From positions 1 to 5,567 of the forward strand of contig JAKQEQ010000088.1 of NCBI GenBank assembly GCA_029556545.1: a DNA stretch of 5,567 nt, in the 5' to 3' direction. A model generated the notes under the pieces. The model ran no database searches and had not been told where the DNA came from. It was given only the letters and a program-made list of their open reading frames with translations. Origin of the DNA: Candidatus Hydrogenedentota bacterium. GTDB lineage: Bacteria > Hydrogenedentota > Hydrogenedentia > Hydrogenedentales > JAGMZX01. The translations under genes were made by a program, and so were the position numbers. This document shows positions 1-5,567 of this stretch, one piece after another; the stretch's first letter is position 1; the number at the start of each line of letters is the position of its first letter.

Positions 1-458
1 ACCGTGCACCCGTAGGCCAGCGCGAAGCGGTCACCGGAGACGCGCAACACCAGCGCATTACCATAATTTTCGTCAACGGATTGAACGGATTCAACGGATT
101 TGTCCGTTCTCTGCGTTCTCTGCGTCTCTGCGGTGAAATCCTCGTCCTCAAAGCGCAACCCCACCCGCGCGCCCTCCGGCAGCGCCCCGACGAGGGTGTG
201 CCACGCCGCATACGCGATCACCAACGCCCCGCGCGGCGTATCTACGGCCAGCACGTCGCCGGCAGCGATCCGCACGTCGCCGTCTTCGGCCAACGTCACG
301 TCCAGCAGGCGGCGGCGCGGCGTGTGGATGAGCAGGCCGTAGCGTTCCGCCGCAAATGTGGCGACAAACTGCGAGAGCGTATCCGTCGGGCCGTCCATGC
401 CGGAGAAGGCGAAGAGCGCGCCTTCGCCCCAGAGGTTGGGGAAATGGTCCGCACTCAT
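1..458 (-). CDS. Unrecognised protein, N-terminal 152 codons (3' end outside window)
   Basis: An open frame runs from an ATG at 458-456 to the left edge with no in-frame stop, giving 152 residues that start MSADHFPNLWGEGALFAF. The ATG overlaps the TGA of the upstream sulfatase gene as ATGA, and a strong GGAGGGG lies 8 nt ahead of it, so start and frame are well supported. Residues 1-107 look like an ordinary folded soluble domain with alternating beta-type stretches (for example residues 69-90). No signal peptide or membrane segment is visible. Residues 108-131 are a repetitive polar insert (TQRTQRT, then SVE-SVQ-SVD) encoded by short DNA repeats, after which normal sequence resumes (LVLRVSGDRFALAYG). 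I do not recognise the family securely. The opening loosely recalls uncharacterised six-hairpin or debranching-type glycosidases, which would fit the sulfatase and mannosidase neighbours, but this is a weak memory-based resemblance. The gene is very likely real; its function is unknown. Confidence 0.82.
   Translation of the reverse strand, partial: MSADHFPNLWGEGALFAFSGMDGPTDTLSQFVATFAAERYGLLIHTPRRRLLDVTLAEDGDVRIAAGDVLAVDTPRGALVIAYAAWHTLVGALPEGARVGLRFEDEDFTAETQRTQRTDKSVESVQSVDENYGNALVLRVSGDRFALAYGCT
73..137. repeat. In-frame short-repeat block (3 x 9 bp plus 3 x 8 bp)
   Basis: On the plus strand three 9-bp units TCAACGGAT, TGAACGGAT and TCAACGGAT occupy 73-99. They are followed by three copies of CTCTGCG(T/G) at 109-116, 118-125 and 126-133, then TGAA. 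Read on the minus strand this encodes the polar insert at residues 108-129 of the leftmost gene. AACGGA at 93-98 and TCCGTT at 103-108 also form a small inverted repeat. Phrases of this kind are, from memory, common dispersed intergenic repeats in several environmental phyla; here one lies inside a gene without breaking its frame. Confidence 0.85.
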
Positions 459-2962: not shown

Positions 2963-5567
2963 TCACCCTAACGTCAACCGCACGGTCTTGATTTCAAACG
3001 CGCGGAAATCCAAAGCGATCTGACCGTCCGTCACGCACAAGTTCCCCTGCGGCGTTTCCAGCATATCGGTGAGGCAGGCCGCCTTGACGGGCAGCGTCGT
3101 GCCGAGCGTCCCCCGCGTCGCCATGCGCTTGGACTCGTACAGGCGCACGATCACGTCCGCCGAACCGTCCTCGGCGGGTTTGACCGTCTCGATGACGACG
3201 TTGGGCGCGTCCACGGTGAACAGGGACGCCGCGCCGCCGTCGCCGGGCGCAACCTGCGCCGGGACGTTGAGGTCGTAGCCCTCGCGCACCACGTCGCAGT
3301 CGGCGAAGCTGCCGTTCCAGGCGTAGCAGGCGTAGGTGAACGTCTGCACGCCCTGGTCGGCGGTCATGTCCGGCGCCAGCGCGGACTTGAGCAGCGTCAG
3401 GCCGAGGGTGTCGCCCAGCACGTTGACGCCGTACTTGCAGTCGTTGAGCACCGCGAAACCGCGATTTTCCTCAGCCAGCGCGCTCCACTTGTGGTTGCTC
3501 ACCTCGAAGCGGTCGGCGTCGAAGGGGCGCGAGCGGTGGTTGGGGCGGCGGATGTGGCCGAACTGGATTTCGTGGATGCCCTCGTTGGCGTGGAGGGCCA
3601 CCGGGAAGGCCACCTTGAGCAGCTTGTGCCGCTCATGCCAGTCCACCGTCGTCTGGAAATCCACGCGCCGGCTGCCGCGCCGCATCACGATGTCCTGCGT
3701 CATCGTGGAATCGTACAGCTTGCGCGTCACCCGCAGGATGGCGACCAGCGGGCCGGCGGTCACGACCTCGACCGTCGCCGGTTCGTCCAGCGTCACGGGC
3801 GACTGTTCAGCCATACTGTCAATGTCCCAGGCGTCGAACCAGGTGGGAACGTCCTTGTACATCCTGAAGCTGTTGCACGGCCCGGTCGCCAGCTCGCGCC
3901 GGGTTTCTTTGTCGAAGAGGCTGGTGATCTGGCCGAAGGCGTCAAACGTCAAACGTAAAACGTCATTTTCGAGAGCGGTGGGGGTGGCGATCAGCGGATC
4001 AGCGAGATCGGCGGGATCGGCGGGATCGGCGGATAGGAGGGTTGTCCAGCCGGAAGCAGGGACGACGACTTCGGCATAGAGTGCATTGCCGATTTTTTGG
4101 ATGGGCAGCGGATGGCCGGCCGCGTCCTGCGCGCCTTGCCAACCGGCGGGCAGCGCGATCAGGGCGGCGCGTTCCCAGGAGAGGGAGTTGAAGATGGTGA
4201 GGGTCGCGGAGGAGGGCGCGGAAGAGGGCGCGGAGACCGCGCCCTTACACGCATCCCCGGCCTGCGCGATCTGGGACTGCGCCGCCGCTATAACGCCTTG
4301 CGCTTCCTGGATGACCGCCGCGTGCAGCGCCTCCGCCTCTTCGTAGACGCGATGGATGGACGAGCCGGGCAAAATGTCGTGGAACTGGTTGAGCAAGACG
4401 CCCTTCCACGCCTCGTCGAGCGTGGCCGCCGCGAAGTCAAAGCCTTGCAGCGCGCGCGCCGCCACACCCCAGAACTCGGCCTCGCGCAGCGCGAGTTCGG
4501 CCTTGCGGTTGCCCCGCTTCGTCCGCGCCTGCGAGGTGTACGTGCCGCGATGCGCCTGGAAGTACAGCTCGCCCACGTAGCGGACGTCCGGCCAGCCGCG
4601 CGCCTCCTGGTCGCGGAAGTAGTCCATCGGATGCGCGATCCGCACTTTGGGCAGCCCTTCGAGGTCGCGGGCGCGGCGCAGGAATTCCAGGTGATTGCGG
4701 GTGGCCCCGCCGCCGCCGTCGCCATAGCCGAAGGGCATCAGCCGCGTGGCGATGCCGTCCTTCTGCACGCGCTCCGTCCAGCGCGCCATCACCGCCTGGG
4801 GATCGGTCTGCGAGCAGTAATCGTTGTGCAAATGAACGAACACCTCGGAGCCGTCAATTCCCTCCCAGGTAAACGTGTTGTGCGGGAACGGCTCGCCGCC
4901 GTTGTACGTCCAGAAAATCTTCTGCGTGGAGAAATACTTGACGCCGCAACCGCGCAAAATCTGCGGGAGCGCGCCGGAATAGCCGAACACGTCCGGCAGC
5001 CAGAGCAGCTCGCTTTCGACCCCGAACTCTTCCTGGTAGAAGCGCTTGCCGTGGAGCATCTGGCGGATGAGCGCCTCGCCGCCGGCAATGTTGGTGTCCG
5101 GCTCCACCCACGCCGCGCCGTCGGGCATGAATTGCCCCTGCGCCGCCGCCGCCCGGATGCGCGCGTAGAGGTCGGGATAGCGCTGCTTGACCATCCGGTA
5201 GAGGTGCGGCTGGCTTTGCAGGAAGCGGTATTCCGGGTACTCCGCCATCAACGCGAGTTGGGTGGAGAAAGTGCGCCCGGCCTTGCGCTCGGTCTCTTGC
5301 AGCGGCCAGAGCCACGCCACATCAATGTGCGCGTGCCCGAAGGCGAACATCTCCGGCACGGTGGATCCGTTGACGCACTCCAGCAGCGGCTTGAGGCGCG
5401 CGCGCCCCGCTTGAACGGTCGCCAGCATCTCCGCGCGCGGCAGCTCGAAGTCCACAATGCGGGTGAAGTCGCGCAGCCCTTCGTCAATCTCGGCGACGCG
5501 CAGGCTGTCCGCGTCGAGGAGGCCGCGCAGTTGAGTCAGCGTCTCCACGTCCACCCACAGTTGATAC
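2963..5567 (-). CDS. GH38 alpha-mannosidase, 5' end outside window
   Basis: The frame is open from a TGA at 2965-2963 to the right edge, so the true start lies outside. Residues are numbered from the GTG at 5554; upstream codons read YQLW. The enzyme is a retaining, metal-dependent exo-alpha-mannosidase of the Ams1/bacterial GH38 type. The catalytic domain (about 65-330) shows GHAHIDVAW (73-81), giving metal ligands H76 and D78; WLPDVFGYS (185-193), with nucleophile and metal ligand D188; and FGYGDGGGG (275-283), where D279 is the likely acid/base. The middle domain (about 335-425) contains YTSQARTKRGNRKAEL, and FHDILPGSS (391-399) supplies metal ligand H392. The GH38 C-terminal domains (about 450-863) include IFNSLSWER and end VRLTLG. 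No signal peptide can be judged because the N-terminus is missing. Ams1-type enzymes carry an extra N-terminal domain, so a substantial part of the gene is likely absent. Two interdomain linkers (438-450 and 509-520) are encoded by short DNA repeats. Expected action: release of mannose from glycans or manno-oligosaccharides, with linkage unknown. Confidence 0.96.
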   Translation of the reverse strand, partial: YQLWVDVETLTQLRGLLDADSLRVAEIDEGLRDFTRIVDFELPRAEMLATVQAGRARLKPLLECVNGSTVPEMFAFGHAHIDVAWLWPLQETERKAGRTFSTQLALMAEYPEYRFLQSQPHLYRMVKQRYPDLYARIRAAAAQGQFMPDGAAWVEPDTNIAGGEALIRQMLHGKRFYQEEFGVESELLWLPDVFGYSGALPQILRGCGVKYFSTQKIFWTYNGGEPFPHNTFTWEGIDGSEVFVHLHNDYCSQTDPQAVMARWTERVQKDGIATRLMPFGYGDGGGGATRNHLEFLRRARDLEGLPKVRIAHPMDYFRDQEARGWPDVRYVGELYFQAHRGTYTSQARTKRGNRKAELALREAEFWGVAARALQGFDFAAATLDEAWKGVLLNQFHDILPGSSIHRVYEEAEALHAAVIQEAQGVIAAAQSQIAQAGDACKGAVSAPSSAPSSATLTIFNSLSWERAALIALPAGWQGAQDAAGHPLPIQKIGNALYAEVVVPASGWTTLLSADPADPADLADPLIATPTALENDVLRLTFDAFGQITSLFDKETRRELATGPCNSFRMYKDVPTWFDAWDIDSMAEQSPVTLDEPATVEVVTAGPLVAILRVTRKLYDSTMTQDIVMRRGSRRVDFQTTVDWHERHKLLKVAFPVALHANEGIHEIQFGHIRRPNHRSRPFDADRFEVSNHKWSALAEENRGFAVLNDCKYGVNVLGDTLGLTLLKSALAPDMTADQGVQTFTYACYAWNGSFADCDVVREGYDLNVPAQVAPGDGGAASLFTVDAPNVVIETVKPAEDGSADVIVRLYESKRMATRGTLGTTLPVKAACLTDMLETPQGNLCVTDGQIALDFRAFEIKTVRLTLG
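3940..3967. repeat. Heptamer tandem repeat inside mannosidase gene
   Basis: Plus-strand units CGTCAAA (3940-3946), CGTCAAA (3947-3953), CGTAAAA (3954-3960) and the degenerate CGTCATT (3961-3967) give four consecutive 7-bp units. They encode residues 531-538 (DVLRLTFD) at the start of the C-terminal domain, where GH38 proteins have a conserved motif of this type. The codons used (GTT, TTA, CGT, TTT) are AT-rich compared with the rest of the gene. Confidence 0.75.
3989..4032. repeat. 9-bp tandem repeat (GATCGGCGG-type) inside mannosidase gene
   Basis: The array reads GATCAGCG, GATCAGCGA, then three identical GATCGGCGG units at 4006-4014, 4015-4023 and 4024-4032. On the coding strand it gives the ADP-ADP-ADL-ADP run at residues 509-520, between the end of one beta domain (GWTTLLS) and the start of the next (ALENDVLRL). 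Being nine bases long, copy-number change would add or remove three residues without a frameshift. Confidence 0.9.
4212..4244. repeat. 12-bp-period repeat and 19-bp GC palindrome inside mannosidase gene
   Basis: GAGGGCGCGGA occurs at 4212-4222 and again at 4224-4234. The second copy runs into a near-perfect palindrome, GGGCGCGG-AGA-CCGCGCCC (4226-4244), with 8-bp arms. On the coding strand the block yields GAVSAPSSAPSSA (about residues 438-450), a low-complexity linker between the middle domain and the C-terminal domain. Confidence 0.8.

Follow-up and report, generated by a model that had tools for sequence, protein, structure and literature searches.

The locus and its genome of origin

The window, that is the whole stretch of DNA analyzed here, is a complete contig of 5,567 bp (C184) of the MAG G000. 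Its left end carries the beginning of a glycoside hydrolase gene, in which a short repeat phrase is read in frame. The following features were assigned to this end of the window.

3..458, minus strand: N-terminal 152 codons of a GH63/YgjK-like glycoside hydrolase (ORF; continues in JAKQHY010000126.1, L018 1-1416)
66..137, minus strand: translated repeat element of apparently hybrid type, residues 108-131 (TRF, pattern counts, genome-wide arms, orthologue alignment)
73..107, plus strand: family A left arm TCAACGGATTGAACGGATTCAACGGATTTG, then TCCGTT closing a predicted small hairpin (TRF; fold AACGGA/TCCGTT; arms across G068)
108..142, plus strand: family B right arm CTCTGCGTTCTCTGCGTCTCTGCGGTGAAATCC (matches B right arms of G068 with the end CTCTGCGGTGAA)
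1..107, no strand: overlap with the start of the G068 contig C205, JAKQHY010000126.1 (identical letters; ends at the A/B junction)

TRF identified one array at 73-100 (unit TCAACGGAT, 3.1 copies) and another at 105-132 (unit CGTTCTCTG, 3.2 copies), and positions 66-137 comprised three units each of AACGGATTn and CTCTGCG. Both arrays were open on the minus strand within ORF 3..458, where codons 108-131 read FTAETQRTQRTDKSVESVQSVDEN; the predicted peptide of the translated phrase includes TQRTDKSVESVQSV. The TRF arrays and the ORF agreed with a sequence-only reading of this DNA, which had described the repeats as stop-free and in frame. That reading had also proposed two short repeats; the 9-bp AACGGAT-type unit was recovered, whereas the second repeat was a mixture of 8- and 9-bp units rather than strictly 8 bp.

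Positions 1-107 were letter-for-letter identical to the first 107 bases of JAKQHY010000126.1 on the opposite strand. This contig belongs to G068, an uncultured Chloroflexota bacterium with a 4.9 Mb genome, and was the single relative returned by a scan of species genomes, matching from its base 1. The CTCTGCG phrase had one exact match in G000, the window's own, and the AACGGATT pattern just two, both inside the window. The sulfatase encoded beside the glycosidase was, along its length, 77% identical to a protein of G110 and 74% identical to one of G109, both from the order of G068; its next best match inside G000 was 31% over 435 residues. The mannosidase of the window showed 68-71% identity to Chloroflexota proteins. 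Judged by its sequence, the window is a mis-binned Chloroflexota contig, because of the 107-bp identity with the G068 contig and because its genes are closest to those of the relatives of G068. G000 was rejected as the true source on the absence of the repeats elsewhere in that genome and on the Chloroflexota best matches. GC content and tetranucleotides of the window were nearer to G000, and the G000-like tetranucleotides may be the reason for the mis-binning. The count of repeat units in the source genome proposed in the sequence-only reading was made in G068; a count in G000, the genome as given, would be misleading for a contig of Chloroflexota origin.

Structure of the repeat elements

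The units in G068 are best described, from their arrangement, as arms of short palindromic hairpin elements and not as independent tandem repeats. Each element consists of two arms of two to three tandem 7-10-bp units, which face each other across a short loop, with a total length of about 60-70 bp. The full A element has the form TCAACGGATTnAACGGATTnAACGGA, loop, TCCGTTnAATCCGTTnAATCCGTTGA, and the full B element starts with TTCACCGCAGAG and, after the loop, ends with CTCTGCGGTGAA. Adjacent family A arrays in 1.36 Mb of G068 followed the order AACGGATT then AATCCGTT in 23 of 23 cases. A fixed inverted order was also found for the families AAGCAGATTn (14/14), AAACGTG (12/12), B (8/8), and AATGAGT (13/14), and the arm ends TCAACGG.. 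and ..CGGTGAA recurred across G068. Full elements were predicted to form strong hairpins (z from -4.7 to -9.1); the A elements tested folded far above their shuffles, with z of -5.3 and -9.1. No Rfam family was matched by the elements, and a literature search yielded no description of these repeat units.

The copy at 66-137 departs from this plan. The hexamer TCCGTT lies between its two arrays and pairs with AACGGA, and therefore the left part would form a small hairpin. A six-pair A hairpin alone was predicted for this copy, and its fold (z -2.0) was weaker than that of full A elements because the right arm belongs to family B. What had been taken for two different repeats lying back to back thus appears to be a hybrid of hairpin-element arms, with a left arm of family A (AACGGATTn) and a right arm of family B (CTCTGCG).

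Other combinations of arms were present in G068. Downstream of A left arms, 16 right-arm motifs of other families were found versus 2 left-arm motifs, and right-arm motifs were also present upstream (n = 7). An A left arm was followed by a GATCCTATCATTCCGTAAATCCTG arm in 9 cases, and the left arm was not of family B for 12 of the 52 B right arms. Some of these hybrids could reflect arms crowded together by chance in intergenic DNA.

Two further hairpin elements were detected in the window at 2826-2956, between the stop of the mannosidase gene and the start of degV. The first has the form GGACACGGA...TCCGTGTCC (z -4.7), and the second GGACGCAGATGAACGCA...TGCGTTCATCTGCGTT (z -6.9); the G068 sample contains 9 near copies of the second.

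Abundance and genomic placement

The genomic base of the counts is one MAG, G068, from which a 1.36 Mb sample was used; its contigs were partly picked for A matches, and genes were called with a home-made codon-usage script, not with a standard caller. The 95-kb contig C175 (L117-L121) has ends that resemble inverted copies of each other and share their repeats and leuS; this is probably an assembly artefact, and later counts took in one end alone.

With at most one mismatch, AACGGATTNAACGGATT was found 223 times in G068 and twice in G000, both times in the window, while the reversed pattern gave no match; chance is therefore excluded. The contigs sampled from G068 contained 36.5 arrays with a period of 7-10 per 100 kb; the density was 5.5 for G000, 0-1.9 for three Chloroflexota relatives, and 0.6 for shuffled sequence. 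The density in contigs C1-C20 of G068, which were not chosen for matches, was 26.3 per 100 kb. Among 400 Chloroflexota genomes, many A copies were found in G068 (214) and G432 (43) alone. A B-like hairpin was also present on two Sphingomonadaceae plasmids; the copy on plasmid pMC4 of Sphingopyxis indica (L279 1501-1563), from another phylum, is intergenic.

The 383 dispersed arrays of the G068 sample comprised 259 intergenic ones, 72 on or close to a gene boundary, and 52 inside about 26 genes. Arrays inside genes thus accounted for 13.6%, versus 67% under random placement, an approximately five-fold depletion, in keeping with the expectation of the sequence-only reading that such phrases are mainly intergenic. 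In intergenic copies, 3.86 of 6 frames were open versus 4.45 in shuffles; the element therefore shows no sign of being adapted to translation.

A gap between two called genes held 77 of the 107 family A arrays, and these gaps were co-directional in 67 cases, divergent in 6, and convergent in 4. The co-directional share (87%) compares with about 68% of intergenic bases. This placement, together with the strong predicted folds and the position of several hybrids just ahead of GGAGG...ATG, would suit elements that are selected as functional RNA hairpins (intercistronic mRNA stabilizers, attenuators, or processing sites), with the genic copies as by-products. We consider this unlikely, since the elements are few at convergent gene ends, nearly absent from related genomes, and without an Rfam match, and since purging from genes alone may explain the intergenic placement. 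Simple transcription terminators were rejected on the few copies in convergent gaps (4 of 77 for family A).

The glycosidase gene carrying the phrase

ORF 3..458 runs out through the contig edge without a stop. Joining window positions 458..108 to L018 gave an intact ORF of 588 aa, the catalytic (C-terminal) part of which matches YgjK of Escherichia coli, a GH63 enzyme, and hydrolases related to it. Overall identity to the joined protein was 55-57% for the orthologues of G109, G110, and G074. At residues 108-131, 24 residues are present here versus 14-15 other residues in the relatives, a net gain of 9-10 aa, and the stretch around this site is already variable among them. The phrase was not found in these three aligned orthologues, and distant relatives also lacked the insert. 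Because the gain is 9-10 aa and not 24, the ancestral loop would have been partly replaced, or the phrase would have grown in place. The proposal of an insertion or expansion thus holds in that a spread repeat became translated, but not as a clean 24-residue insertion. A second phrase, STDSTDLNGFLSVESVQSV, was found at about residues 178-203, where the relatives hold 6 to 22 residues; this insert is a complete A hairpin.

The small net gain, the tandem units, and their unequal copy number could also result from local slipped-strand expansion within a tolerant loop, without any spreading element. This is very unlikely, as G068 contains hundreds of copies of identical units, whose arm ends match and whose inverted order is fixed. 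Independent slippage would not reproduce dispersed identical arms in a fixed order, and independent tandem slippage was rejected on this ground.

The end of the G068 contig falls exactly at window position 107, the A/B junction, and no further hybrid of an A left arm and a B right arm was found in the 1.36 Mb G068 sample. Together with the G000-like GC content and tetranucleotides, these points would fit an assembly chimera, in which two genomes would have been wrongly joined at the repeat to give the window contig. Such a join is highly improbable. Identity to the same orthologues was 57-60% before the phrase versus 59-62% after it, and this equal similarity on either side argues against a chimeric join; the assembly error that the sequence-only reading had allowed for was not apparent. 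The joined ORF is, moreover, in frame and full length, and the sulfatase (77%) and mannosidase (71%) on the far side are likewise closest to Chloroflexota.

The insert might alternatively be a useful new segment of the enzyme, an adaptive protein innovation, for which its retention in frame and the gene's other insert could speak. We regard this as the faintest of prospects: the phrase sits in stretches varying freely among orthologues, and intergenic copies are not enriched in open frames. The peptide is presumably neutral, and the glycosidase protein is presumably produced with the phrase.

Other translated copies in leuS and the mannosidase gene

Among the repeat-carrying genes, leuS of G068, an essential gene, was the strongest genic case. 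Its product was identified as leucine--tRNA ligase (906 bits versus a cut-off of 548), and it contains two translated phrases from other families of like kind. The first site has 48 residues versus 26-33 in nine relatives, and the second has 50 versus 33-40. The inserts, of 10-22 aa, were absent in 9 of the 9 relatives compared, and LeuRS of Thermus thermophilus (1h3n) has a 21-residue gap at the first phrase.

The GH38 mannosidase gene of the window contains, at about 4190-4240 on the minus strand, a 16-aa in-frame segment (CKGAVSAPSSAPSSAT) that derives from the GAGGGCGCGG repeat with a GGGCGCGGTCTCCGCGCCC palindrome and was absent in 4 of 4 orthologues. A second phrase, SADPADPADLADP, at 3989-4034 on the same strand, comes from GGATCGGCG units, which were also found in G068. 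A CGTCAAA match at 3940-3965 was rejected as a repeat insert; it is probably a conserved ENDVLR motif, because relatives share the segment without a change in length.

Proposed origin of the translated phrase

The phrase at 66-137 is probably a copy of a dispersed palindromic repeat that lies in frame in the glycosidase gene and persists in a length-tolerant linker. The elements, which we infer to be mobile, would spread or regenerate genome-wide, and most of the survivors would sit between co-directional genes. Selection would purge genic copies unless they are in frame, stop-free, and in a length-tolerant linker. Copies landing or growing in frame in such a linker could persist and would then be translated.

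A more far-reaching and rather doubtful extension is that tiny modular hairpins with arms exchanged between families spread through the genome and repeatedly enter genes, including essential ones, in frame and without a dedicated transposase, perhaps through hairpin-primed template switching. Three weak Y1_Tnp matches were found in G068, and neither of the two Y1 loci inspected (L230, L235) had A arms. Heptamer arrays were located near the Y1 locus of L230, and some 0.8 kb separate the Y1 transposase match of L235 from an element with a CACAGAG left arm and a CTCTGCG right arm (L235 2458-2520). Modular arms would allow tests of element copying and of protein tolerance.

Comparison with known repeat systems

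The TAACTGA repeats of marine Beggiatoaceae are, in the part of their description drawn on here, abundant intergenic heptamer arrays made of direct repeats of one unit (PMC4679880). The G068 elements share with them the abundance of intergenic heptamer arrays and a host lineage from the environment, and differ, by that part of the description, in being predicted hairpins that also occur inside genes (PMC4679880). REPINs, or REP doublets, are inverted, hairpin-forming doublets of a short repeat in extragenic space (Bertels and Rainey, 2011; PMC3116915) and are associated with a dedicated RAYT adjoining REP (PMC3116915). The G068 elements are likewise inverted hairpin doublets dispersed in extragenic space, but their arms are tandem arrays, and a RAYT partner for them is not established. 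Inverted ends, one trait of MITEs, are present in them; no target-site duplication was identified in comparisons with other species. The STRR heptamer repeats and small dispersed repeats of cyanobacteria are likewise intergenic and involve short units, about 7 bp long, in tandem. Relative to STRR as generally described, the G068 elements feature a palindromic two-arm order and copies that are translated within housekeeping genes.

The best-known examples of translated palindromic elements come from the Rickettsiales, an intracellular group whose genomes are shrinking. Rickettsia palindromic elements (RPEs; Ogata et al., 2000) are small dispersed palindromes with long stem-loops and a length of about 100-150 bp, grouped in several families, each with its conserved peptide; they sit in intergenic DNA as well as in frame within conserved protein-coding genes, and genic copies are frequent, making up nearly half in the first report (PMC10969869, PMC2229807). 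The elements of G068 are similarly palindromic, with a predicted stem-loop and many dispersed copies (223 A matches), and have in-frame copies in conserved genes (leuS, glycosidase) whose orthologues are without them. Unlike RPEs, they are about 60-70 bp long, have arms of tandem 7-10-bp units, and combine arms of different families; about 14% of the arrays are genic, and instead of a preferred frame and conserved peptide, the genic copies of family A use SVx (6), TDx (4), NPF (3), and NGF (2). In behavior the G068 elements are akin to RPEs, with differences in frame use and arm structure; membership is not claimed. With hundreds of elements and in-frame copies in leuS, G068 presents translated palindromic elements outside an intracellular, genome-shrinking setting.
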